Below are positions 8,101-28,355 of a stretch of DNA of 42,363 nt, piece by piece. This DNA is from a virus: positions 1 through 42,363 of IMG/VR virus record IMGVR_UViG_3300046517_000639; one strand, given 5' to 3'. The notes beneath the pieces were generated by a model, which worked only from the letters and a program-made list of their open reading frames with translations, made no database searches and was not told the DNA's origin. Made by a program: the position numbers and the translations under genes. Within the stretch, counting starts at the first letter, position 1. The number at the start of each line of letters is the position of its first letter.

Positions 8101-8742
8101 GTGTCTATGAAGCCTTACTATGACCATGCAGGGATTACGATTTATCACGGGGATTGCAGAGAGTTCGTAGCCGCAACAATGGCCTGTGTTACTGATCCAC
8201 CATACGGAATCGGCTACATGCATGGCGAAGGTGGGGGTTGTTTGGCAAAAAGCACTATATTTGCAGATATTCCAATAGCCAATGATGATGCGCCATTCGA
8301 CCCTGCGTTCCTTCTGTGGATGCAAGGTACGCTCATACTTTGGGGTGCAAATCACTACGCAAGCAAACTTCCTAATTCATCATGCTGGTTGGTATGGGAT
8401 AAACGCGACGGAATGTGTACGAATGACCAAGCAGATTGCGAGATGGCTTGGACAAACTTAGAAAGTCCCGCTCGACTCAAACGACATTATTGGAATGGAA
8501 TGCTCAAAGCCAGTGAGCGGGACGAACCCAGAGTACATCCAACGCAAAAACCAGTCGAAATCATGAAGTGGTGCATTGGATTTACAGACCCCGAAGAAAC
8601 TATCTATGACCCCTTCATGGGCAGCGGAACTACGCTACGCGCCGCCAAAGACCTTGGCCGCCGCGCCATCGGCATAGAAATCGAGGAAAAGTACTGCGAG
8701 ATTGCAGCCAAACGGCTCTCCCAGGAGGTGTTCCAATTCTAG
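8101..8742 (+). CDS. DNA methyltransferase 1 (N6-adenine/N4-cytosine, beta class)
   Basis: A 213-aa protein. Catalytic motif IV DPPY is at residues 32-35 and the SAM-binding motif DPFMGSGTT at 170-178. The order catalytic-then-SAM defines the beta class, which methylates adenine N6 or cytosine N4. The variable middle should set the target site. The GTG at 8101 has AGAAGGGA 6 bases upstream; an ATG at 8107 is possible. No restriction enzyme is adjacent, so it is an orphan, probably used to evade host restriction. It is a paralog of 9050-9679. Its 3' end contains AGGAGGTG, which appears to be the ribosome site of the next gene. Confidence 0.9.
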   Translation: MSMKPYYDHAGITIYHGDCREFVAATMACVTDPPYGIGYMHGEGGGCLAKSTIFADIPIANDDAPFDPAFLLWMQGTLILWGANHYASKLPNSSCWLVWDKRDGMCTNDQADCEMAWTNLESPARLKRHYWNGMLKASERDEPRVHPTQKPVEIMKWCIGFTDPEETIYDPFMGSGTTLRAAKDLGRRAIGIEIEEKYCEIAAKRLSQEVFQF

Positions 8743-9053
8743 ACCTAACTTACTTCCAGATAGCCGAGTGGCGCTTACTTGAATGGGAGCAACTCTACTC
8801 TCCGCTCAACGTCGCCGGCGAACTGCAAAAGATGAAGCAGTGGCTGGATGCCAACCCTCGCCGCCGCAAGAAGAACTACAACCGCTTCATCATTAACTGG
8901 CTGAACAAAGAGAGCGCACGAGTCGAACGCCAAGCCGTAGAGGCACGCAGCTATGCCAGAGTGGGCCACTACGAAGGCACCGGAGAGCACGCCTCGCCAG
9001 AGCGCGTACAGGAAGTGCTGGCTATGATTGAGAGACAGAGAGCGAAAAAGTGA
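8736..9053 (+). CDS. Replication-protein-like C-terminal module, probable AUU start (105 aa)
   Basis: From the ATG at 8832 the protein is 73 aa, but the 32 codons before it read sensibly (LDLTYFQIAEWRLLEWEQLY). They contain no ATG, GTG or TTG. A perfect AGGAGGTG at 8723-8730 lies 5 bases before an in-frame ATT at 8736. I therefore propose AUU initiation, overlapping the methyltransferase stop. The core MKQWLDANPRRRKKNY, then RFIINWLNK, resembles the C-terminal tail of phage replication-initiation or DnaD-like proteins. Its N-terminal winged helix would be missing here. GTGA overlap with methyltransferase 2. Confidence 0.6.
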   Translation: MLDLTYFQIAEWRLLEWEQLYSPLNVAGELQKMKQWLDANPRRRKKNYNRFIINWLNKESARVERQAVEARSYARVGHYEGTGEHASPERVQEVLAMIERQRAKK

Positions 9054-9679
9054 AGCCATATTATGAACATGCGGGAATCACGATTTACCACGGAGATTGC
9101 AGAGAAGTGCTGCCATCGCTGGAGCCTGTTGATTTGTTGCTGACCGACCCGCCATATGGAATCGGACGAGATGGCTCACGAGAAAGCACAGGAAGTCATG
9201 GTGGACGTAAGGCTTATGAGTTTTTGGGATGGGATGCGGAAATTCCTAGCAGGGAAACCTTTCGCGCAATGTTTGCGGCATCACGGGAACAAATTGTATG
9301 GGGAGGGAACTATTTCACAGCTTACTTACGCCCGACAATGGGATGGTTTGTTTGGGATAAAGGGCAGCGCATTGACCAATCGGACGGGGAACTTGCTTAT
9401 ACCTCTTTCGATAAAGCGCTGCGAATCTTTACTCTGAATCGAATGGCTATCGCTCAGGATGGAGCAGAACATCCAGCGCAAAAACCTGAAGAGCTTATGA
9501 AATGGTGCATGTTACAGGCAGGAGATGAGTTTCAGTTTATCCTCGACCCATTCATGGGCAGTGGCACCACGCTCCGAGCTGCGAAAGACTTAGGCCGCAA
9601 AGCAATCGGCATAGAAATCGAAGAAAAGTACTGTGAGATAGCAGCAAAGCGACTGAGTCAAGAAGTGCTCCAATTTTGA
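9050..9679 (+). CDS. DNA methyltransferase 2 (beta class, paralog)
   Basis: A 209-aa protein with GTG start. DPPY is at 33-36 and DPFMGSGTT at 166-174. The first 20 and last 45 residues are almost identical to methyltransferase 1 (MKPYYEHAGITIYHGDCRE; IGIEIEEKYCEIAAKRLSQE), while the middle differs (SHGGRKAYEFLGW; TAYLRPTMGWFVWDKG). Many differences in the shared ends are synonymous, so both copies look selected. It is likely to have a different target site. Orphan, with no partner endonuclease. Confidence 0.9.
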   Translation: MKPYYEHAGITIYHGDCREVLPSLEPVDLLLTDPPYGIGRDGSRESTGSHGGRKAYEFLGWDAEIPSRETFRAMFAASREQIVWGGNYFTAYLRPTMGWFVWDKGQRIDQSDGELAYTSFDKALRIFTLNRMAIAQDGAEHPAQKPEELMKWCMLQAGDEFQFILDPFMGSGTTLRAAKDLGRKAIGIEIEEKYCEIAAKRLSQEVLQF

Positions 9680-12004: not shown

Positions 12005-12308
12005 AGAGGAGCGAGAGCGCCTGAAATGGCTCATACGTGAAGGCAAGATCAACGACGAAACCCGTATTGCCAGAATCGCCATACCATCTCTCGACGCCAA
12101 GGCCCGCATAGAGAACCGCGAGAAGAAGAAACAAGTGAGATGGAACACGGATGAACAGAACTACAGCGAGTTTGCAGCGGTGCGCGAGGCTTGGATGCAG
12201 GAACTAGAGCAGAATCCAACACTTTTTGGTTATGCCGTTGTTGAGGCAATGAGGACTTTCGACGTGCGAACCTGGTATGAGGACCATGCTACAGAACAAA
12301 AAGGATAA
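11991..12308 (+). CDS. Basic helical protein (105 aa)
   Basis: The GTG at 11991 has GGAG 8 bases upstream and gives VPTLKEERERLKWLIREGKI as N-terminus. Longer frames would only add out-of-character sequence from the overlapping gene. The rest is charged helix. It overlaps the HNH gene by 32 bases. Function unknown. Confidence 0.55.
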   Translation: MPTLKEERERLKWLIREGKINDETRIARIAIPSLDAKARIENREKKKQVRWNTDEQNYSEFAAVREAWMQELEQNPTLFGYAVVEAMRTFDVRTWYEDHATEQKG

Positions 12309-12639
12309 GGAAGCGACCAAGGCACGCAAGTTTATGAATCCCAAGAGCTACGTATCGAGCCGCATCCATCCTGAAACCAGTCATCCCTGCCAGTACCTGA
12401 AGGGAAAAGATGTGGAAATAGTGAGGATGGTCATTTTCGAGCGTGAGAAGGGCCGTTGCTTCAACTGTGGCGCTTACTACGGCTGGGACTACGGCGAGAT
12501 GCACCACAAGCTAGGCGGTCTGGGGCCGCAGCGCTGTTTCTGCGAAGAGAACCTTACCTGGAGCTGTCGCCGCTGCCACACCAACGCCCACGCCAGAATC
12601 TTGCAATGGAGGAACTATGAAAAACGAACTGATCTCTGA
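12277..12639 (+). CDS. HNH endonuclease
   Basis: A 120-aa protein. C61 and C64 (RCFNCG) pair with C97 and C100 (CRRCH) to bind the structural zinc. The catalytic core is EMHHKLGG (H76, H77), N92 (ENLTWSC) and H101/H105. It cuts DNA; in this position it may process recombination intermediates or help terminase. It has no AP2 domain, unlike the endonuclease at 25355. ATG at 12277 or 12286 are both possible. Confidence 0.8.
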   Translation: MRTMLQNKKDKEATKARKFMNPKSYVSSRIHPETSHPCQYLKGKDVEIVRMVIFEREKGRCFNCGAYYGWDYGEMHHKLGGLGPQRCFCEENLTWSCRRCHTNAHARILQWRNYEKRTDL

Positions 12640-17199: not shown

Positions 17200-17553
17200 T
17201 CAGACTTTGGGAGGATTATCTTCCACCTGCGTCTTGGCTACTGAAATTGCTTCCTTGGCCTTGTCCGTAGCTTCGGCAGCAACCTGTAACGTCTGCTGCA
17301 ACTGGTCTGGTGCGCCATGCAATTGCAGGAACTCGAACATCCGATAGCCACCTTGGAACAAGAACATTACGCCCATCAGCTTCAGCGTATTGCCTATGCT
17401 GTTAGAGAGATTGAATGTACCTGGAGCGATGCCGATACTGGTCAGGCCAGACACCATTGCCGCCGAGCCTCCACTGATGAATGATCGGAAGATGCCCAGC
17501 ATCCAGGTGGACCAATCATATGCGCGTGCGTTTACGACAGCAGTGAGTGTCAT
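17200..17553 (-). CDS. Holin-like protein (117 aa)
   Basis: AAGGAGAAAA precedes the ATG. NARAYDWSTWMLGIFRSFISGGSAAMVSGL, then FNLSNSIGNTLKLMGVMFLF and GGYRMFEFLQ, give two to three membrane-compatible segments. The C-terminal tail is helical and charged. I recall similar proteins (WxxGLxxxFISGGAGAV, LLxLMGVTF) annotated near phage lysis genes. It overlaps the end of the spike gene by 38 bases. Best holin candidate in the window, unproven. Confidence 0.55.
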   Translation of the reverse strand: MTLTAVVNARAYDWSTWMLGIFRSFISGGSAAMVSGLTSIGIAPGTFNLSNSIGNTLKLMGVMFLFQGGYRMFEFLQLHGAPDQLQQTLQVAAEATDKAKEAISVAKTQVEDNPPKV

Positions 17554-20416
17554 TTTTCTCCTTATAGCCTACAACCGCTCCAACTCTGAGTACCTTACGT
17601 CCCGTTGCTTGGCCCGTAAGAGGAACTGTGCGGGGACTGCCAAAAGCCGTATCTGTAAACACCAGATTGGCCGTTTTGCTGCCATTGGAAGTGGGGCTAA
17701 ACGTCACACTAACCGTGCATTGCGTTGCAGTGGCTTGTGTACCTGCACAAGTTGTAGTTTTGCTGAATTCACTGGCATTCGTTCCAGTTATGGTTATACC
17801 TAGCGTCACCGTCGAACCGCTGTTGTTGGAGTATGTCACAACCTGAGCAGCGCTCGATTTGTTCTTATTGATATTCCCGAAGTTGAGAGAGGCAGGCGAG
17901 ATAATCACTGGCGCCATGCCGGTTCCAGTCAAAACTGAGCAATCTGGCGAGTCTGGAGAATTGCTGCTCACGCAAGCCGTAGCCGTTTCTGTTGTTGTCG
18001 TTGTCGGCGTGAAAGCTATCATGACGGTGCAATTAGCTCCAGGAGCGACCACAAGGCTATTGGTGCAAGTTGTAGCTCCATCTATGACAAAATCAGCAGC
18101 ATTAGCCCCTGAGACAGTTACGGCATTTGAGCTGAACAAGATAAGGTTGGCGGTCCCGCTATTCATTACCGTAAACGGACTCTTGTTAGTTGTTCCTTCA
18201 GAAACAGGGTTCAAGAAAACAAGATTTGCCGGAGAGATATTCACTGCCGGCGCTAAGGCGATGACTGTACCAGTTGCTTGGTTTGAGTTGGCGCTGGTTC
18301 CAGCCGAATTAGACGATGCCACTACATAAAAATAGGTTCCCGCAGATAGGCCGGTATCGGCATAAGTGGTCGTAGTTGGCGAGGCTATGGTTGTATAGGG
18401 TCCACCGCTCACCGTTGCACGGCGAACCACATAATTAACAACCGTTCCCGTTGAAGCGTTCCAGGAAAGGTTAATAGTCGAGCCAGATACCGCCGCAGTG
18501 AGGCCAGTAGGCACGCTGGGAATGGATATAGCGTTGGTTCCCGCTCCTGTGAGTATGTCTGAACCATTTACCGTCCCTGTTACGCTCAAAGTGCCGGAAT
18601 AGCTGGTGACAGCCGTAGGAGTGAATTTAGCGAGCACTGTACAACTTGCGGAGACTGCAATCGTCCCGCTGGCAGCGCATTGCCCGCTTAGTCCGGTATT
18701 GCCATTGGTGAACACGCTGGGCGAAATTGCAATGCTTGAATAAGTCTCTGTCGCAGTTCCCACGTTCGATACGGTGATTGTCTTGGTTCCCGTGGTTCCA
18801 GTGTTCTGGTTCCCGAATGCCGCAGGGCTGGGGCTAAACGAAAGCAATGGAGCAGTGGTGCCTGTGGATTGAATAGCCCCAATATCCCATGCTCCAACTG
18901 ATGGCCGTGCATTGCCATTCAAATCCGTCTGGAGATAGGTGAGTGTCGCAAAGAGATTTAGCCCTTTATTCTTAGCGCAAGCATCGCCAGTAACCGGAGT
19001 AGCATTGTTAGGGAAAGCCCCGCCAATGAATCCGACATTGCAATTATTGCCATTCGTCTCCCGAGCAGGAGACAGTCCGCGCAACCCAGTCAGAGTGTAA
19101 TCCCCACCGAAAACATGCGCGATAGTGGGATAATTTAAGCTAGTCGTTGCGTACGTATCATAATCCCAGGAGGTAGACGAGGTGTACGATGCTATGCTGC
19201 CCGTATACACTGGCACCAATGAATTTCCGCAGCATAGGTTGGTAACGCCAAAGATGTTGTTGAGCACCGTAAGGTTGGTAACGATTCCGCGACTACTGTA
19301 AATGTTATAGCCGCCCGAATTGAGAAATGTATTGTTGGCTATGACGATATCATTCCACGTAGCGTTGCCGCTTCCATCCCCCTCGGCGTCAACGTTGCAG
19401 CCTCCAAATCCACCCGCAGAATCTAAAACGTTGTTATAAACCCTAATATGACCATTTGTGCTGCCAGCCGCTGCATTGTCCAGATAGCAGTTCTGGTCAT
19501 TGGAGCCATGAACATAATTACTATAGAGAGCGCAGTACTGAGCAGACTGACATTGAATAGAATCGGAATGTCCTGAACCGCTTACTCCGGTAACTTCATT
19601 GTGATAGATAGAGGCATTGTTGCCGACATCGATTCCATCTTCAAACAGATATTGGATAAAGTTGTCGTGGATTAGAGTATTGGTGAAGGTTGTTCCATTC
19701 AACGGCGGGAACGCTTTAATGCCCGTAGCGCAATACTGTTTCTGGGTATTGACGTGGTTAGGGTAGCATATAGTGGTTCCACCGCTAGTCGGCGCAGGGC
19801 CATGCACCCAGTTGTAACCAATTTCAAGAATGGCACTGGAACCTTGAGTGCCCATACCTCCGGCATAAAATCCACCCGTATAATCAGTAGTTCCTGTGAT
19901 CCCCGTTCCAAGGCATTCGATATGGAGAGCCTTCACATCATGCTCGCCGTTGTTCATGTAGCTACAGTACTTATCGACTCCAAGGTTGATAACGCGAATA
20001 CCATAGGTAGTGCTGCCGCCGAAGGCTGCGTTTCCAATTACACCGTCCACAGTGACATAGGCTTGACCGTTGAAATTAATTCCTGAACTAGACCCCTGAG
20101 TGTCAATGATTGCAGTTCCACCTCCACTGACTGAGACACGAACGACATTGCCAAGGGTGCCGGAAGATCCAATAGTCAATTGTCCGGTATAGGTGTCACC
20201 AGAAACCAGAAAGAGAGTGTCGCCGGCATGTACTGATCCCCATGCGATGCTAGATAATCCGCGCCAGCCGCCGACACCGCCAGGACTGCCGGCACAAGCT
20301 GCCGATGTACCGTCGCCGTTGTTGGCACAAGTGGTAGCCGAGCGCACGAACCAGTTCGTAGCGTTAGCCGCTGAAGCGCAGAATAAGAGGCCCATTGCTA
20401 GAAACAGACGTTTCAT
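17516..20416 (-). CDS. Exported-type beta-helix spike with Fn3 and HYDIN-like repeats
   Basis: A 966-aa protein. Residues 1-20 (MKRLFLAMGLLFCASAANA) are a clear Sec signal with an AxA site. Residues about 20-520 form a right-handed parallel beta helix of the pectate-lyase or tailspike type (repeats such as IVIANNTFLNSGGYNIYSS and LTVLNNIFG). Then come a HYDIN/ASPM-like domain (FSPSPAAFGNQNTGTTGTKT), a fibronectin III (PTGLTAAVSGSTINLSWNAS) and two more HYDIN-like domains (IIISPASLNFGNINKNKSS type). About 25 cysteines occur largely in pairs. Predicted to be a glycan-binding or -cleaving spike, built with domains typical of bacterial surface proteins. ATGA overlap with the gene before. Confidence 0.8.
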   Translation of the reverse strand: MKRLFLAMGLLFCASAANATNWFVRSATTCANNGDGTSAACAGSPGGVGGWRGLSSIAWGSVHAGDTLFLVSGDTYTGQLTIGSSGTLGNVVRVSVSGGGTAIIDTQGSSSGINFNGQAYVTVDGVIGNAAFGGSTTYGIRVINLGVDKYCSYMNNGEHDVKALHIECLGTGITGTTDYTGGFYAGGMGTQGSSAILEIGYNWVHGPAPTSGGTTICYPNHVNTQKQYCATGIKAFPPLNGTTFTNTLIHDNFIQYLFEDGIDVGNNASIYHNEVTGVSGSGHSDSIQCQSAQYCALYSNYVHGSNDQNCYLDNAAAGSTNGHIRVYNNVLDSAGGFGGCNVDAEGDGSGNATWNDIVIANNTFLNSGGYNIYSSRGIVTNLTVLNNIFGVTNLCCGNSLVPVYTGSIASYTSSTSWDYDTYATTSLNYPTIAHVFGGDYTLTGLRGLSPARETNGNNCNVGFIGGAFPNNATPVTGDACAKNKGLNLFATLTYLQTDLNGNARPSVGAWDIGAIQSTGTTAPLLSFSPSPAAFGNQNTGTTGTKTITVSNVGTATETYSSIAISPSVFTNGNTGLSGQCAASGTIAVSASCTVLAKFTPTAVTSYSGTLSVTGTVNGSDILTGAGTNAISIPSVPTGLTAAVSGSTINLSWNASTGTVVNYVVRRATVSGGPYTTIASPTTTTYADTGLSAGTYFYVVASSNSAGTSANSNQATGTVIALAPAVNISPANLVFLNPVSEGTTNKSPFTVMNSGTANLILFSSNAVTVSGANAADFVIDGATTCTNSLVVAPGANCTVMIAFTPTTTTTETATACVSSNSPDSPDCSVLTGTGMAPVIISPASLNFGNINKNKSSAAQVVTYSNNSGSTVTLGITITGTNASEFSKTTTCAGTQATATQCTVSVTFSPTSNGSKTANLVFTDTAFGSPRTVPLTGQATGRKVLRVGAVVGYKEKNDTHCCRKRTRI

Positions 20417-21798
20417 AGGATTTGTCCTTTATGCCGCGTTGCCGTTGCTGGTGGAGATGAAATTCCCATAGAAAGAGTGGCGATGATTGGCCGAACGCTG
20501 CCTGCTGACATAGCACAACTGGTTGTATTGCTTCCAGCCGCAGTGGTTAAAATGGATTGCGTTAACTGTTGGTCCGAGGCAGCGAAGGAAGTATCTATGT
20601 CGGTTCCACTAGCTATTTGCAATTCACTGCTGTTAGGAACAAGAGGATTGGTGATAGCGTCAAAACAAACTGTGAAAGTCTGCTCATTATTTGCGGCTGT
20701 AGTATAGGAAGTGGTCAAAGCCAATGCGGAGGTTTCTGAGCCTGCGTCCAATACGCCTGTCAATCCAGCCCATTCAGCGGCTTGGATAAATAGCCCTGTC
20801 TGGCCCAGCCCTCCATGCATATTTATGCCTACGCTATATGTCGATTGATTGGTATTTGTCGAAGCGATGCATAAACCTGCCTGAACGTTTATCCCTGCAT
20901 AGACGTGGGGAGTATTGCGAGCATTTGCTGGACAGTTACAACTCGTACCCAAGCATAGGGCAATGTCGGCAGGATCAAAAGCATCCGCAAACCCATACAC
21001 GATTATGTTATTAGCCGTGTAGTTGTGGAGAGCACAGGTTGCACTAGTGCGCGTGGTATCAGGGTAGGCGAAGTAGCAGCTCTGCAATTTGTATACTGAT
21101 GGCTTCGTAGGAGCATTTTGGGTAAATGCCATCGCCACAATGGAAGGCAGAGGAAATGGACTTGATTCATCATATTGAGCGGTAACACTTCCAGCCCCAC
21201 CTGTAATCTGCGACCAGGAACCAAATTTAATGTTCTGAGAACCAATCAAGGCATCAGTCATTCCCCACTGCTCTTGGAAGAATCCAGTATGAGGAGTTAG
21301 GTCATTAGCGAGGTCTGCCCCTCCCACATCCAACCACTCGCTTGCGTTGGCCGTGGTAAGTGAGCATGAAGCGGCACCGGCAGTGCAATTAGTGTCAAAC
21401 GCAACCAGCCCAACTTTCTCCCTGGCTCCTACCCACAAAACACGATTGAATCCCCCTGAAGATGTTGCGGTAACAGTGAAAATTGCATGATTGGAAGCAG
21501 GAAATAGGTAGCAACCAGTAGTCTGCCATCCATTTGTGGCATTAACGCCGCTGAAGCAAGCGGTGGGAGTTTCCGGAGAACTGGTTATGCTAATAGTTGT
21601 GGCCGCGCCAGATGCGTACATTAAAACGGCACGTCCAGCAACTGTGTTGGCCATCGTGCAGGATACACTTGTGATTCCTCCGGCATTCTGGCGCGGAGAC
21701 CCACATTCATTGGAGGTGTATGGTCCAGTAACAGCATGAACTTTGTGCGAACAGAGCAGGAGCAAAAGAAGAACGAGTAGATATTTTACTCTGTGCAA
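20413..21798 (-). CDS. Exported-type lectin-like tail/fibre protein
   Basis: A 461-aa protein with TTG start. MHRVKYLLVLLLLLLCSHKVHA is a strong signal peptide. The mature part has two jelly-roll/lectin-like domains (AGGITSVSCTMANTVAGRAV; later YTANNIIVYGFADAFDPADI) of the type repeated elsewhere in this genome. At least 14 cysteines, often in pairs (IALCLGTSCNC). It ends in an ATGA overlap with the spike gene. Probably a surface-binding component. Confidence 0.7.
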   Translation of the reverse strand: MHRVKYLLVLLLLLLCSHKVHAVTGPYTSNECGSPRQNAGGITSVSCTMANTVAGRAVLMYASGAATTISITSSPETPTACFSGVNATNGWQTTGCYLFPASNHAIFTVTATSSGGFNRVLWVGAREKVGLVAFDTNCTAGAASCSLTTANASEWLDVGGADLANDLTPHTGFFQEQWGMTDALIGSQNIKFGSWSQITGGAGSVTAQYDESSPFPLPSIVAMAFTQNAPTKPSVYKLQSCYFAYPDTTRTSATCALHNYTANNIIVYGFADAFDPADIALCLGTSCNCPANARNTPHVYAGINVQAGLCIASTNTNQSTYSVGINMHGGLGQTGLFIQAAEWAGLTGVLDAGSETSALALTTSYTTAANNEQTFTVCFDAITNPLVPNSSELQIASGTDIDTSFAASDQQLTQSILTTAAGSNTTSCAMSAGSVRPIIATLSMGISSPPATATRHKGQIL

Positions 21799-24146
21799 GA
21801 AAGCACCCCGTTCACGAATTTGGCGGTAGCAACTACGGTCACATTCATGGCCATGATGTCATTGGCGGTGACGGTAGTTGTTGTGAAGTCACCCAAGGAA
21901 GTGGAGTGTATCGCTGTACCGCTCGATATGCCTACACCACTGGTGTTGATTGAATTGCCGCTGGTCGGAATGGCTGTTCCTGTGGCTATCTTCCAGAACT
22001 TGACGGTGATCGTTCCAGCATCGATATTCAGATTGTAGGCATCGATTGTGCAGGCAAATGGCACGGTGATGTAATCAGTAGTCGTACTTGCAGCCGTTAG
22101 CGCTGAACCAGCCGGATCGCCAACTGTGAAGCTGATACCATGCTTGCTGTGCAATGTAGGCGAGGCCGAAGTACCGCCTAGTCCACCTGCCAACTGTACA
22201 AGTCCAGCCTGTCCGGTAGTCGCTAGAGGTACTTCTAAACTGATGCTGTCCGTGTTTCCGGCTGCGGAAGTTTGCACCACTAGATTCTGATTGTTAGCTC
22301 CAGCTGCTGGTGTCGTGGAATTGAAATTCTTGATGTTCTTGGTAGTTGCTGTGCCATTGACCTGTACTTGCAGATTGCGGCCATTGCCACCGCTGATGCT
22401 CGATGCGTTTAGCTCTGAAGGTGTCAGGTTGCGAATGATTGCCGCCGTGCCGGCACCAGCGTTGCCACTGTAGATATACCAGTAAGATTGTCCATTTGTG
22501 GGGATGGTCGTTCCTACATCGCTCAAATCTCCGTTTACCGTGGTGCTGGATTGGGCATAATGGCCAGCCGTCGCGCCATTGTCCATAATGACTGAGCAAA
22601 ATCCGATGATGCAGATTCCTGTAGAGCCTGTATTGCCTGGAGTTGCTCCATTCGCCGCTACTGCTACACCTAGTGGATTGTTGGTCGTGGACGATGCAAA
22701 CGGGCAGATAATGGCTTTGCCTGTTCCATCATCGCAGGCGAGTTTATTTAGCGTTGTTCCTGTAGCTGCATTGTTTGTCGCCCACCAGAGATAAGCACCG
22801 AGCTGGTTAACGTCATAGCCATTGTCGCAGCGTACCGCTGTAGTGCCATCATCCAATCCGCAACCATTGCCCACCGTCGCTGCACCAGTCCATTTCGTGT
22901 CGTGATTGGCCGTACCCGCTCCGGTGATCGTTCCACCGCCACCTCCAGCCGCCGCTATCGAGATGGCATAAGCCGCTGGTGTTAGCGTGATGTTTGTGCT
23001 GGCAGTCAGAGGAACTGGTGAGCAGCGGTCATAGTACGTTCCAGGTGCCGTAGGATCTGAGAAAATGGAACAACCAATTCCCTGCGATATGGTTAACGTA
23101 TTTGAACCAGTTGAGAAGAAAGTCGAAGTAGTGGCCGTGATCGTTGCCAGTCCCGCTCCATCATTCTTGATGAAAGTGAACCAGTTTCCATCAAAAGAAG
23201 TGGCCTCACTGGCTTGAGGAAGTGATAGGGCTTTAGCGCCAACGGCGGTCAAATAAAGAATCTCTCCTCGCTCTGTTCCATCGAAAGTATAAGAAGTAGC
23301 ACTGACGACAATCGGAGGTACGCCAGGAGTGCAGTTTACGAATGTTGGAGGAACTGCCGTGCTGTCCCAGCAGATCGTATCGCCCTCCTGAATATTGGTG
23401 ATTTGAGCCGTAATTACTGTTCCACCGCTGGAAGATGATGGAGGCCCAAGGTCAATCAGCGTCCATTTACCGCCAGATAGCAGGAATCCAGCAATGTCTC
23501 CACTCGTAACGCCACTTGGCACAAATGAAGGGATAATGCTATCGGCGCCTTGATTGCCATGATAATTCAAGCCTGTCGCATCGAAGCACAGTTGACCGCT
23601 AGAAGTTGCCGTACAGCCAGCTATTAAGGGGACTGTCATTCCCGAAGTCTCGCCTGATAGGTCAAGGCCAGGACCGCCACCAAAAGCTAGCGTGCCGTTA
23701 CCTTGATTGAAGCTCTTATTGGTGTTCTGGTCCGTTACTTGGTCTAGGCGTGGGAATCCTGGTGGAGGTGCTGGACCGGAATTGGTACTGCCCTGAGAAG
23801 TGTAAGTCAGCCCATCGTTCCAAATGTCTGCACCCTGCCCTGATTGCAAAACTAAGTTTGCTTGCCCATTAATCGTGCTAGTAGAAGTGATTGTGACCGT
23901 ACCAGCGCCGATATTCTTGACGCTGAACATGATTCCAGGCCCTGAACATGAGTCACTGGCTGCAAACAGCGTAGCCGCTACCGCACTGCCATTGTTGAAA
24001 GTGACTAGTTTTGTCGCATCGGTGCAAACGAATGTATAAGTAGTTCCAGTCTGGGCATTGACGCCAGAAAGCATGCGAGCCGTATTGGTCTGCGCTTGAG
24101 TACTGACTGCAAAGAAAAAGGCTAGGAATAGCAGCTTCTTTTTCAA
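21786..24146 (-). CDS. Exported-type fibre protein (786 aa)
   Basis: Start set at the TTG at 24146 (TTGA overlap, GGAG 8 bases upstream), which begins with a signal peptide LKKKLLFLAFFFAVSTQAQ. The frame from 24179 would put 11 odd residues before it. The mature protein is Thr/Gly/Ser-rich beta structure, with a segment like phage decoration domains (GNWFTFIKNDGAGLATITAT), a loop with DTICWDSTAVPPTFVNCTPG, and many paired cysteines. Probably a trimeric fibre. The C-terminus (FACTIDAYNLNIDAGTITVK) looks like a receptor-binding tip. Confidence 0.75.
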   Translation of the reverse strand: MKKKLLFLAFFFAVSTQAQTNTARMLSGVNAQTGTTYTFVCTDATKLVTFNNGSAVAATLFAASDSCSGPGIMFSVKNIGAGTVTITSTSTINGQANLVLQSGQGADIWNDGLTYTSQGSTNSGPAPPPGFPRLDQVTDQNTNKSFNQGNGTLAFGGGPGLDLSGETSGMTVPLIAGCTATSSGQLCFDATGLNYHGNQGADSIIPSFVPSGVTSGDIAGFLLSGGKWTLIDLGPPSSSSGGTVITAQITNIQEGDTICWDSTAVPPTFVNCTPGVPPIVVSATSYTFDGTERGEILYLTAVGAKALSLPQASEATSFDGNWFTFIKNDGAGLATITATTSTFFSTGSNTLTISQGIGCSIFSDPTAPGTYYDRCSPVPLTASTNITLTPAAYAISIAAAGGGGGTITGAGTANHDTKWTGAATVGNGCGLDDGTTAVRCDNGYDVNQLGAYLWWATNNAATGTTLNKLACDDGTGKAIICPFASSTTNNPLGVAVAANGATPGNTGSTGICIIGFCSVIMDNGATAGHYAQSSTTVNGDLSDVGTTIPTNGQSYWYIYSGNAGAGTAAIIRNLTPSELNASSISGGNGRNLQVQVNGTATTKNIKNFNSTTPAAGANNQNLVVQTSAAGNTDSISLEVPLATTGQAGLVQLAGGLGGTSASPTLHSKHGISFTVGDPAGSALTAASTTTDYITVPFACTIDAYNLNIDAGTITVKFWKIATGTAIPTSGNSINTSGVGISSGTAIHSTSLGDFTTTTVTANDIMAMNVTVVATAKFVNGVLSCTE

Positions 24147-25333
24147 GGATGGACTCCAGTGCAGTTGATCTGCGTCCAATGAATAGGCGAAGAACCTACA
24201 GTAACAGTCCTGACGGCCACAGAAACAGTATTCTGTGAAGCAATTTGCAGATTGGCTCTACCCGTAGTTGGATTTCCACCGTCCACAGCCGTTACTCCAC
24301 TGCAAGTCACAGAGTAATTGGCATCTGCGAAAACCACCGGCCATGCAATCGAGTTGTCGCAAGTGTCAAAGGTAGAGCCTCCAGTTGTGCAAGGCGTCCC
24401 TGTAACGACACAGCCCACCGCGCAATATGTCACTGCTTGAATCTTGCTTGCTCCGATGCTGCAACTTAGTGTAGTCAGGCCGGAATTGGCGTCCAGGCAG
24501 ACATTAGTACCAGCTCCACCAGTAATCATGCCTGCCGTCATCAAATGATTGTCTGAGCCCTGTGTAGCAACTTGCGGAGTGCCGCCGGCAAGCGTGAAGC
24601 TATTCGCCAGTAACGTAGTCACCGAGGCCGTATTGGGAGTGGTTGAGCCTAGAGGGCAGGGAATCGCCCATGTGCAGCCATTGAGCAAACCTGCATTCAG
24701 GTTATTGACTTGCGTGGTGCTGGAGATGACGAAGGGAGGCGTGCCTGTTGCCAGCGTCGAAGTGATTTGGCCGCTAAACGTTCCCGTAGTGGAGGAAAAG
24801 CCGTTACTAAAACTAGGTACACCAGAAAATACAGGAGTCCCAGTAAACGTTCCATCTAGGATGCCTCCACCACTCATGTTGTTTGGCCCTGAGGATGTGA
24901 AGCCGGAGTTGAATGTCACGCTGGAATTGAAGATAGCCGTATTGTTCCAGGTGTTTTGTCCTGTCCAAATATTGTTGAGTCCTAGGAGCGTATTATTGGC
25001 CGACGAAATATTATCCTCGCTCCAAAGCGTGACTCCCGCAGAGGTTTGCATGATGAATTTGTAGGCAACTGGAGTCATCCATACATCTGCCCTTCCAGCC
25101 GCATCCATGACGATTGGATTTGTATTCGGAATAACCCCAGCGGAATCACGATAAGTAAGTAGTGGAGTTGTAGTTCCTGCCGAATAGCTGAATAGTTTGC
25201 AACCTACACAGGGCCTTCCGTTATTATCGAAAAATTGTGACTTCGTGAATGGATAAAGGGCTACTTGAGCACTGGAAACAGAAGAAAAGACTAGAAAAAA
25301 CAAGAAGATTATAAGAAAATGGCTGAGCAGCAA
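24143..25333 (-). CDS. Tail fibre with signal-like N-terminus (ORF open to 25891)
   Basis: The body starts near 25333: a TTG followed by LLSHFLIIFLFFLVFSSVSS, a signal peptide ending before AQVALYPFTKSQFFDNNG. Next comes the domain GCKLFSYSAGTTTPLLTYRD...NPIVMDAAGRADVWM...YKFIMQ, a known N-terminal domain of phage tail fibres. Thr/Ser beta repeats and several cysteine pairs follow. The frame stays open upstream to an ATG at 25891 that makes the usual ATGA junction with the ejection gene and encodes MKKLLLLLALL, another signal-like start. An endonuclease gene on the other strand lies between. The present start is uncertain. Confidence 0.7.
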   Translation of the reverse strand: MLLSHFLIIFLFFLVFSSVSSAQVALYPFTKSQFFDNNGRPCVGCKLFSYSAGTTTPLLTYRDSAGVIPNTNPIVMDAAGRADVWMTPVAYKFIMQTSAGVTLWSEDNISSANNTLLGLNNIWTGQNTWNNTAIFNSSVTFNSGFTSSGPNNMSGGGILDGTFTGTPVFSGVPSFSNGFSSTTGTFSGQITSTLATGTPPFVISSTTQVNNLNAGLLNGCTWAIPCPLGSTTPNTASVTTLLANSFTLAGGTPQVATQGSDNHLMTAGMITGGAGTNVCLDANSGLTTLSCSIGASKIQAVTYCAVGCVVTGTPCTTGGSTFDTCDNSIAWPVVFADANYSVTCSGVTAVDGGNPTTGRANLQIASQNTVSVAVRTVTVGSSPIHWTQINCTGVHP

Positions 25334-25354
25334 ATTCCTATGTGAGGTAGGAAC

Positions 25355-25873
25355 ATGCCAAAACGTCGGATGCGCCGACATTCTGTTGCTCAGCCGATTG
25401 ACCAGCCTTACAGATTCATCCCGCTTACGCAAGAGCAAAACGCTATTGTTGATACTAGAGACTTCGATTGGATTTCGCAGTGGAATTGGTCTGCCCGTTG
25501 GTGTCCAGATACTAAAAGTTTTTACGCATTTCGACACGGAAACATAATGATGCATCATGTAATCCTTGGTATTCGCTGCGAAGTTGACCACAAAAATGGG
25601 GATACCTTGGATAACAGAAGAACAAACCTTCGCCAATGCACGCACTCTCAAAACATTCAAAATCAACCTGGAAACCGCCTTAATACCAGCGGATACAAGG
25701 GGATTTACTTCCATGAGTGTGGGAAGTGGCAAGCCAAAATCACCTGCAATGGGAAGCGAATGCACTTGGGACTTTTCTCCACCAAAGAAGAAGCGGCAAG
25801 GGCTTATGATCGCAAAGCTAAAGAACTGCATGGTGATTTTGCATGGCTGAATTTTCCTGAGCAAAGCCAGTAG
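25355..25873 (+). CDS. HNH-AP2 homing-type endonuclease inserted in the late operon
   Basis: A 172-aa protein. An N-terminal segment (YRFIPLTQEQNAIVDTRDFD) leads to the HNH core with H67/H68, H79 (CEVDHKNGDTLDNRRTNLR), N91 and N100, then an AP2 DNA-binding domain at 112-167 (SGYKGIYFHECGKWQAKI, then LGLFSTKEEAARAYDRKA). Free-standing genes of this type spread by cutting unoccupied sites in related phages. It has its own ribosome site (GTAGGAAC) but opposes the late operon. It sits just inside the ATGA start of the fibre gene and is codon-aligned with an open antisense frame. Confidence 0.85.
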   Translation: MPKRRMRRHSVAQPIDQPYRFIPLTQEQNAIVDTRDFDWISQWNWSARWCPDTKSFYAFRHGNIMMHHVILGIRCEVDHKNGDTLDNRRTNLRQCTHSQNIQNQPGNRLNTSGYKGIYFHECGKWQAKITCNGKRMHLGLFSTKEEAARAYDRKAKELHGDFAWLNFPEQSQ

Positions 25874-25887
25874 CAGAAGTAGTTTCT

Positions 25888-26769
25888 TCATTCTGTAAAC
25901 TTCTTTCCCATGCGCTGCTGCAAGGTAGTTCTCTTGTTAACTGAGCCTTGCGCGGCATGATACATACCTGCATCACTTGCTTGCTGCTGCAAAACTCTCA
26001 TCTGCTGCTGATAGGCGGCAAACTCTTCTGGAGTGGCAACCAATGGATTAAGAGGCTTCGGCATTCCTGCTGCTTTCTTAGCTATAAATTCTTGCTTGGC
26101 TTGCTCAAACAAGTCTGCTTTAGCCTGTTCTTTGGCTAATTTTGCTTGCTGGATTTCATCCATTGTTTTCAATCGGCCCATCTGTGAAAGTTCCTGCTGA
26201 CGTTGTTTTTCTAATTGGGCCAGATTCTTAGCAAATACGTTATGCGCTTCTTGTACATCTTGATCAACTCCGAAAACTCTCCTAAGAGCGTACTCTCCAC
26301 CTTTTTCCACTGGATGCGCCACAGCCTTACCCAAAGCCGTTAGTTCACCCTCTGGGGTTAGGAGCTTATTGGCAATTATTCCTTTGGCGAAGTTATAAGT
26401 GCCTTCTGCTAATCCTCCACCAATTAGGCTGCCTACATCACCGCTGACTTCCTGACCGAGCTCTCCAGCACCAGAGATTCCAGCAGCAGTGCTACCAACA
26501 AGTGAACCAGCAGTGCCACCAACTAAAGCCCTTGCCGCAGAGGCCGGTGATGCACCAGCAGCACCAAGAGAACCAGCAAATAAACCTGTTTTTGCGCCTT
26601 CATATGCTGCCCTACCTGGAGACATGCCCTCTGCTGGATTGGGCAGATTGCGAATTCTGGCATTAGGAACAAATTGCGAAGAACTAGGAGCAGCCTGCTG
26701 AGCAGCGCTTTCCTCTACTGGAGTCCAAGCCGAAGTATCCTCTACGGGAGTCCAGCCAGTATTGCTCAT
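25888..26769 (-). CDS. Ejection (injection) protein, gp16 position
   Basis: A 293-aa protein starting at the ATGA overlap (MSNTGWTPVEDTSAWTPVEE, a tandem WTPVE repeat). A Gly/Ala/Ser-rich segment (TGLFAGSLGAAGASPASAAR to LIGGGLAEG) could insert in membranes. The rest is coiled coil (LEKQRQQELSQM, AKLAKEQAKADLFEQAKQEF). It is the third of three genes in the P22 order gp7-gp20-gp16, whose products leave the head with DNA and form a channel across the envelope. Confidence 0.7.
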   Translation of the reverse strand: MSNTGWTPVEDTSAWTPVEESAAQQAAPSSSQFVPNARIRNLPNPAEGMSPGRAAYEGAKTGLFAGSLGAAGASPASAARALVGGTAGSLVGSTAAGISGAGELGQEVSGDVGSLIGGGLAEGTYNFAKGIIANKLLTPEGELTALGKAVAHPVEKGGEYALRRVFGVDQDVQEAHNVFAKNLAQLEKQRQQELSQMGRLKTMDEIQQAKLAKEQAKADLFEQAKQEFIAKKAAGMPKPLNPLVATPEEFAAYQQQMRVLQQQASDAGMYHAAQGSVNKRTTLQQRMGKKFTE

Positions 26770-28355
26770 GGCTTTTGCTCCTGTTTCCAACCAGTCGGCA
26801 GTGCTGTTCCAGCAGGGGCTTGATGTAACTTTCCTTGAGGATCGCGAGCGTAGATAACATTAGGGGCTGCACCCTTTTTACCAGTCAGATCGGGATGCGC
26901 TTCAGTAGGATTGACTCCACGAATGTTGGGAACACGTTCACGCAAGCGATCAATGTCTGCCTGAAATTTCTTACCTTGTCCTAGAGCATAATTGGCATCA
27001 GCCGATGATCCACTGGGAAGTGTCTGAAACAAAGCACTGCTTTGGGTTTCGCTGGTACGCGAACCTCCAGTGATTTCCTTCGGCAAGCCTAGAGATGTTT
27101 CCTTCAATTGAAGAACAGACTGAATATATTCCTTGGTTTGAGGGGTAGCAGCCTTTAGAGCTAGATTCCTGATAGCGTCATTAATCACTCCAGGTTCACT
27201 GTGAGAAAGAACCTTGGAAATGATGGCCCGCTGTTCTGGCCCTTGGTTCAGAGCCTCACGCGAAGCCATAACATCATTTAACTTGGTCTGCATGGTGTTC
27301 AGGACCACAGTATGTGTTTTGGCGTCGTCTATTTGCTTGGGAGTAGCCTCTGTAATCCCTGTATAACCAGCAGCCTTGGCATCGCCTTCAGGCAACAAAT
27401 GCGCTTGATTGCTTGAATCGTAGGCCAAAACTGGCTTGGCGGCATGTTGCGCCTGAGCATCGGCATGGGCTTGCTTAGAAAGTTGCAAATTCTGAAGCTG
27501 TACCCCATGAGCAAACTCTTGTTGTGCTTTTACACCTTGCGCTTGTTCTGTTTGAGTAAGGATTTTATCGATTCTGTCAAAATCCTTCTGTGTGGCATTG
27601 GCTGGTAGAGTATATTCCGCTGGCAATGCTGCACCTGGATTCAGAACCTGAAAGCGCCGAGCAAGCCCTTGATTCAGTTGTGGAACCTTTTCCCCTAGAG
27701 GCAATTCACCTTCTTTTACTGTTCCCGCTGCACGAATTTCGGCTACCTTTCTCTCATTCTCCATTTTCTGCTGGATAGGCGATGCTGCCCTTGCTGAATC
27801 CACAAGTTGTTTAAATTGCTGTGGATTGGAATCAATCAACTGCCGCATTTGCTGGATTTGAGGACTATCCCCTAATGGATCAAGCAGGCGATGGGCAACC
27901 CTAGGATCATAGTTGGCCTGTTGTATTGCATATGCGGCATGACCAAAAAGATCGGATTGGTCCTCTTGCAATTTCTGCATTTTGGACTTCATATCCACCA
28001 AAGAAGTCTGATATTTGGTGACGCCTTCTAGGATTCCAGGGATAGCCGAGCCATGCCCAGACATTCTCAAGGCTTCTGAGAGCTTGTTTGTATCTATTTT
28101 CGGCTGGCCATTCTCATCTGGAATTACAGAGTTTTTATAGGCATCATCCAGAGCTTTCTGTGTCTCTATCTGGCGTTTCTGAGCCTCCATTTGCATTTGC
28201 TGCATCTGCAATTCATTCTGCTGGCCTTGCAACTGTCCAGGCGCTAGAGCGTTCTGGTTCTTCATGCCCTGGATCTGCTGCGCTTGCGCGATGTTTGTCG
28301 CGTAATCGTTGATTTGCGGCTGCCGGCCCATCAGGGCTACAAGTGGGATGCCCAT
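26766..28355 (-). CDS. Ejection protein, gp20 position (Gln-rich)
   Basis: A 529-aa protein, Gln-rich and helical at the start (LQGQQNELQMQQMQMEAQKR), then mixed helices. This composition and position match P22 gp20-like DNA transfer proteins, though the sequence itself is not recognised. It overlaps the next gene by ATGA and touches the stop of the gene before. Confidence 0.65.
   Translation of the reverse strand: MGIPLVALMGRQPQINDYATNIAQAQQIQGMKNQNALAPGQLQGQQNELQMQQMQMEAQKRQIETQKALDDAYKNSVIPDENGQPKIDTNKLSEALRMSGHGSAIPGILEGVTKYQTSLVDMKSKMQKLQEDQSDLFGHAAYAIQQANYDPRVAHRLLDPLGDSPQIQQMRQLIDSNPQQFKQLVDSARAASPIQQKMENERKVAEIRAAGTVKEGELPLGEKVPQLNQGLARRFQVLNPGAALPAEYTLPANATQKDFDRIDKILTQTEQAQGVKAQQEFAHGVQLQNLQLSKQAHADAQAQHAAKPVLAYDSSNQAHLLPEGDAKAAGYTGITEATPKQIDDAKTHTVVLNTMQTKLNDVMASREALNQGPEQRAIISKVLSHSEPGVINDAIRNLALKAATPQTKEYIQSVLQLKETSLGLPKEITGGSRTSETQSSALFQTLPSGSSADANYALGQGKKFQADIDRLRERVPNIRGVNPTEAHPDLTGKKGAAPNVIYARDPQGKLHQAPAGTALPTGWKQEQKP

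Follow-up and report, generated by a model that had tools for sequence, protein, structure and literature searches.

Sequence evidence for an HNH-AP2 endonuclease gene inserted antisense in the predicted signal-peptide codons of a phage fibre gene, with the antisense frame free of stops

Introduction

The closest described relatives of the gene reported here are the free-standing HNH endonucleases of PHROG 99, which combine HNH_3 and AP2 domains and occur, for example, in Bacillus phage 268TH002 and Pseudanabaena phage Pam5. They belong to the same family, at about 41% identity, and like our gene they are single genes at a conserved spot that is empty in relatives. However, they lie mostly in the sense orientation and at gene borders, whereas ours lies antisense, apparently inside signal-peptide codons, and has an open antisense frame. 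In orientation the nearest parallel is segD, the only T4 homing endonuclease opposed to its neighbours and noted as exceptional for that (PMC2988022). It too is an antisense free-standing endonuclease amid essential late structural genes; unlike ours, it belongs to the GIY-YIG family, is intergenic and has terminators on both flanks, and we counted 9 stops in its antisense frame. A limited search of the open-licence literature returned no report of stop-free antisense endonuclease frames or of insertion in a signal peptide.

The DNA analysed, hereafter the window, is a 42,363-base IMG/VR record whose minus strand carries P22-like late genes, namely portal, scaffold, major head protein, head closure and DNA ejection. 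A first-pass annotation had described, at the ATGA end of the gene in the ejection-protein position, a fibre start reading MKKLLLLLALL from 25891, a plus-strand HNH-AP2 gene at 25355-25873, a second signal-like segment from TTG 25333, and a minus frame of 582 codons, open throughout and codon-aligned with the endonuclease. All of these features were recovered at the same coordinates, the endonuclease through Pfam and PHROG matches, and they are the basis of what follows.

Results

The fibre open frame (24143-25891, minus, 582 codons) consists of a conserved start, an antisense-coded segment and the fibre body, and it is joined to the upstream gene by an ATGA stop/start junction at 25888-25891. 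A scan with the fibre body gave two close relatives, L002 and L003; searching genomes for the fibre added few informative loci or none. Both fibres start at the place equivalent to 25891, as MKKLLLLLALLFALPVYGQVALMPW in L002, where the ATG overlaps the upstream stop, and as MRKLLLLLALLFALPAYGQVALMPF in L003, where the fibre is coupled to the gene before it through an ATGA junction; in both, the predicted signal peptide is uninterrupted. A third relative, L008, starts its fibre with MKRILLIVALLCALAGGVSAQVALLPF about 200 bases past its upstream gene. The endonuclease is absent from all three, so that the empty allele is present among relatives. The opposite outcome, in which relatives' fibres always begin at the equivalent of 25333 with no ATGA start, was looked for in this comparison, which the first-pass annotation had suggested, and was not found.

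In the empty-site relatives a normal signal peptide, MKKLLLLLALLFALPVYG, runs up to QVAL, and the window segment reaches the same mature residue (SSA|QVAL). The n, h and c regions are all present in the relatives, while in the window the n-region and the core are split by the insert according to hydropathy; here and below, signal peptides were judged by eye and by hydropathy only, and all of them and their cleavage sites are predictions. More distant clade relatives also have hydrophobic leaders on the fibre gene, whereas in PBR31, P26218 and PAE2, whose spikes are of the ordinary kind, and in distant P22-like contigs the conserved domain itself forms the start of the protein. The predicted signal-peptidase site of the window, A208/Q209, falls at 25268/25267 (minus), preceded by a hydrophobic core and c-region, FLIIFLFFLVFSSVSSA, at 25268-25318 (minus), either retained or rebuilt; both were assigned from hydrophobicity and alignment with relatives. 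The mature fibre from Q209 (24143-25267, minus) is under purifying selection, as judged from a dN/dS of 0.06 against L002 and L003.

Signal-peptide-like starts are unusual for phage tail proteins. In the tail module (17516-25891, minus) they open 4 of 4 consecutive genes, as MKKLLLLLALL..., MKKKLLFLAFFFAVSTQAQ, MHRVKYLLVLLLLLLCSHKVHA and MKRLFLAMGLLFCASAANA; such starts are common to the soil relatives and absent from ordinary P22-like spikes. The second fibre gene of this module probably starts at TTG 24146 (minus), which has a GGAG ribosome site (-5.9 kcal/mol), rather than at the listed TTG 24179. Another of its genes (17516-20416, minus) encodes a tail protein of 966 residues, the C-terminal half of which contains ASPM-SPD-2-Hydin/Cep192-like Ig domains.

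What remains of the original fibre start is codons 1-11, MKKLLLLLALL (25859-25891, minus), identical to L002 except for the last base. Window positions 25860-25892 match L002 at 33 of 33 bases, and the fibre DNA beside this block matches L002 at only about 65%, or about 58-70% across the first 300 bases, so that the block was probably exchanged recently. Since identity to L002 ends at 25860, the right junction of the insert was placed at 25858/25859. On the other side, FSSVSSAQ matches FALPVYGQ of L002 codon for codon, which puts the left junction at about 25288/25289, and the outer stem of an RNA structure described below extends the element at least to 25321; together, the codon count against L002 and the outer stem confine the left junction to 25289-25320, within the hydrophobic core. 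Beyond the insert, conserved fibre sequence resumes at Q209. The remnant start, the intact signal peptides of the relatives and the resumption at SSA|QVAL argue that the element landed inside the signal peptide. An insertion of the HNH-AP2 element antisense to the late operon, in the codons for the hydrophobic core of the fibre signal peptide, is thus supported by these alignments. If so, the uninterrupted start would be MKKLLLLLALL joined to FLIIFLFFLVFSSVSSAQ or to FSSVSSAQ.

Two internal starts lie in frame on the minus strand. The candidate ATG at codon 171 (25379-25381) has a weak ribosome site (-3.8 kcal/mol) and falls inside stem P2 of the RNA structure. The candidate TTG at codon 187 (25331-25333), inside the P3/P1 region of the same structure, has no usable ribosome site (-1.8 kcal/mol); it opens the second hydrophobic segment, LLLSHFLIIFLFFLVFSSVSSAQ, which may have belonged to the recipient and need not be a remnant.

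The upstream gene, in the ejection-protein position (25888-26790, minus), has no DNA match to the gene at the same place in L002 or L003. It is wholly different in the window, L002 and L003, while its neighbours are 77-90% identical, a pattern that marks a modular swap with its end at the fibre start. A single-protein scan for this gene elsewhere returned no match.

The endonuclease gene (25355-25873, plus) encodes 172 amino acids and matches HNH_3 (E 7.9e-9), AP2 (E 1.1e-7) and PHROG 99 (E 2.6e-43); the AP2 match, at 32.4 bits, is slightly below the Pfam cut-off of 33.3, and PHROG 99 spans the region. Its HNH catalytic motif is intact, with D78, H79, N81, G82, N87 and N100 invariant in alignments of relatives, in which the conserved core stops at LNFP. 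The gene occupies nearly the whole insert, and its final four codons and stop (EQSQ-stop) are the antisense of fibre signal-peptide codons. By these matches it is an ordinary member of its family, with homing and cleavage of the empty site being putative activities. No exact counterpart was found elsewhere by a single-protein scan, and larger bacterial samples gave few or no informative loci. A Sedimentisphaerales MAG (G010, locus L233) holds about 15 HNH-AP2 copies.

The codons of the endonuclease are in register with the minus frame, so that TTA, CTA or TCA codons would appear as stops on the fibre strand. None of its 9 Leu and 8 Ser codons is of these kinds, and the minus frame crosses the 190 inserted codons stop-free. 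The codon-use test proposed in the first-pass annotation was therefore positive: 4.7 antisense stops were expected from the endonuclease's own third-position A use (P 0.002), and 3.0-3.1 from phage codon usage (P = 0.019 with curated genes, to 0.035), these P values preceding a further factor of 1/3 for the frame being in phase. An in-phase stop-free antisense frame in the window is unlikely by chance. Among first-round relatives, the antisense frame was open in 6 of 80. When the first sample was restricted to HNH relatives of similar G+C (0.40-0.52), it was open in 1 of 41, and that one was L105, the best-matching relative, which lies antisense between late genes.

Two further relatives, L185 and L188, were fetched later by protein similarity only, using an alignment of the window, L105 and L106. 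Both are antisense to late genes, with 0 antisense-stop codons each (6.4 and 7.0 expected). Searching contigs found through a neck gene gave six more HNH genes, all 6 antisense to the operon, of which L044 has 0 antisense stops (7.2 expected), L053 0 (4.2) and L068 1 (5.9); these three frames are open over 97-100% of their length, and those of L047, L032 and L037 are not. By its N-terminus L044 is of the NUMOD4-HNH type, an assignment of our own, and by Pfam it is HNH_3. L044 (L044:7860-8869) and L068 are antisense two-gene modules inside P22-like late operons, in which a gene of 155-156 residues overlaps the HNH gene by 4 bases.

Taken over 12 antisense elements, a set whose curation was partly manual and came after the effect had been noticed, the aligned frame holds 15 antisense stops against 33.1 expected from own-phage usage (P 0.0004), with 116 and 95 stops in the other two frames; in these phages' endonuclease paralogues at other than nested-antisense positions, the count is 30 against 22.7 expected. 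Own-phage codon tests on single elements were weak (P 0.03 to 0.4). With a mechanical classification at G+C 0.40-0.54, which misfiles the window, L185, L188 and L044, all antisense on inspection and open, the frame was open in 4 of 9 nested-antisense genes and in 0 of 29 sense genes (Fisher P 0.0017); excluding the window, L105 and L106 gave P 0.033. The antisense-open design thus recurs in L105, L106, L185, L188, L053, L044 and L068, relatives that lie antisense in late operons. Other antisense elements carry stops (L037, 5; L047, 2; L032, 2; G002b, 4) or are rich in them (L131, 9; L136, 9; L179, 7; L222, 8). A universal rule that antisense endonucleases are antisense-open is rejected, as several carry stops, T4 segD included; openness is a tendency and not a rule.

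In L105, L106, L185, L188, L053 and L044 the open frame spans the whole gene or 97% of it, as in the window, though these elements lie between genes, whereas the antisense frame of the window is fused to its host gene. For the five single-gene elements among them, the antisense frame stops at the start of the next gene, to within about a base, through the junctions ATGA (L105), TAATG (L106), TAA|ATG (L185, L053) and TAAtATG (L188). At the other end, the L053 frame begins directly past the upstream stop (TGA|ATG), and the L105 frame overlaps it (ATGGGTAG). Identity of the antisense protein was in nearly all pairs no higher than in controls with codons shuffled within each amino acid, and four-fold sites are saturated; a conserved antisense protein was rejected on the shuffled-codon result. 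Frames that bridge neighbouring genes while encoding an unconserved protein would fit selection for readability rather than for a product. The downstream gene of L185 had no match in public phage records, and its empty site was therefore not seen. In L106 (L106:1026-1130) and L188 (L188:800-893) the late gene upstream is separated from the antisense endonuclease by a hairpin with T-runs, so that expression of the downstream gene may there depend on read-through or on a promoter within the element.

On the minus strand, that of the late mRNA, a predicted three-way-junction RNA covers the endonuclease leader and its first 14 codons (25318-25398, by fold and covariance model). Minus-strand 25321-25395 folds at -41.1 kcal/mol (z -5.95), and L106 and L188 have a like fold on the same strand (z -5.1 and -4.1). 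Between these two, 9 of 9 variable pairs are kept, 4 of them through double changes. A covariance model built from L106 and L188 alone found its best window site at 25318-25398 (minus; 26.0 bits, E 5e-4), the next site scoring 12.4 bits, and in the 1.14 Mb searched it found nothing beyond this site and the two source sites. Because the window, L106 and L188 share coding homology at the RNA, this points to shared structure and not to independent origin. In the outer stem, common to L106 and L188, bases 25321-25332 are paired to codons within the endonuclease gene. There are 16 G-U pairs in the minus-strand folds, each of which would become an A-C mismatch on the plus strand; folding is also better on the minus strand, making the late transcript the likelier site of action. 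Structure at the other antisense endonucleases is moderate in L105 (z -3.5), which the model does not find, and near z 0 in L185 and all others. The three-way-junction RNA matches no Rfam family, and a group I or II intron was rejected, the window having no match to any Rfam intron family.

Discussion

From these data a way of living in an essential operon can be proposed. Ribosomes entering at the conserved ATG 25891 would carry on through the antisense of the endonuclease gene, so avoiding polarity and keeping the fibre expressed, while the endonuclease would be expressed off the opposite strand using its own ribosome site. Since both the extension coded antisense and what is left of the hydrophobic core precede A208|Q209, signal-peptidase cleavage would discard them. 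We put at about even chances the full reading in which an inserted endonuclease with a structured leader is read through antisense and its extension is discarded with the signal peptide; translation, export and cleavage are the steps we infer. All element-coded residues precede A208|Q209, so the cleaved, mature fibre would be the same as in relatives wherever translation begins. A wider proposal is more tentative, though a real possibility: that there is a class of mobile elements built for both strands, with an endonuclease and a translated stop-free bridging frame, in some cases with a conserved RNA, that keeps the late operon expressed, and that in the window signal peptidase removes the product of the insert.

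The first-pass annotation had offered either a new start or a translated 190-residue antisense-coded extension after insertion in the signal-peptide region. The place of the element has held up; between the two alternatives, the evidence leans to translation through the element. Rescue of the fibre by ATG 25381 or TTG 25333, the open frame being chance, is rather unlikely, and has points in its favour: from either in-frame start the protein would have a signal-peptide-like N-terminus with a strong hydrophobic core (Kyte-Doolittle 3.5 over 11 residues), TTG starts are probably used elsewhere in the phage (24146, with GGAG), and the single-gene significance of the open frame is modest by own-phage codon usage (P 0.02-0.035). 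However, the ribosome sites are weak, both starts are buried in RNA of -41 kcal/mol, and open frames recur among antisense-lying relatives. With the insertion granted, the weak and buried internal starts, the conserved entry at ATG 25891 and the continuous frame perhaps tip the balance slightly towards read-through.

It is also conceivable, though improbable, that nothing was split: the element would have brought along an L002-like piece of fibre start and been placed ahead of a complete signal peptide native to the recipient, the start codon of which was later lost or altered. Such a mosaic would suit the 33-nt remnant identical to L002 with both neighbours diverged or non-homologous, and the resemblance of RNLLLSHFLIIFLFFLVFSSVSSAQ to a whole signal peptide. 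Against it, the outer stem at 25321-25332, common to L106 and L188, assigns the LLLS part of the segment to the element, and FSSVSSAQ replaces FALPVYGQ codon for codon. Far less probable is a functional overlapping protein selected for its own sequence: the antisense frames of L053 and L105 do start and stop like operon genes, but antisense identity fails to exceed the codon-shuffled controls in nearly all pairs and four-fold sites are saturated. We give hardly any credence to an intron spliced out of the fibre mRNA, which the structured RNA on the late-mRNA strand might recall, because the endonuclease fills nearly the whole insert and an open frame would be needless.

Selfish endonucleases must spare the phage that carries them, and introns and inteins do so by removal at the RNA or protein level. 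If read-through and cleavage occur as proposed, harm would be avoided in yet another way, by an insert that lies in a cleavable signal peptide and keeps its antisense frame open, and removal of the insert's product by signal peptidase would be a protein-level counterpart of splicing. The antisense-open design suggests a way for selfish genes to occupy essential operons while leaving these unbroken. It yields a prediction that can be tested on any endonuclease opposed in orientation to its operon, and could serve as a clean system in which to study polarity, translational coupling and dual-strand coding.

Some features away from the fibre locus were also noted. The adjacent plus-strand ORFs 8101-8742 and 9050-9679 match the same part of DNA methyltransferase family PHROG 67 and resemble a tandem duplication, and 12277-12639 (plus) gives a second, weak match to an HNH endonuclease (PHROG 119, E 5e-5). 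In the genome of L002, the gene upstream of the head-closure gene is present in two tandem copies (L012:2497-4122), 37% and 71% identical to the single copy of the window.
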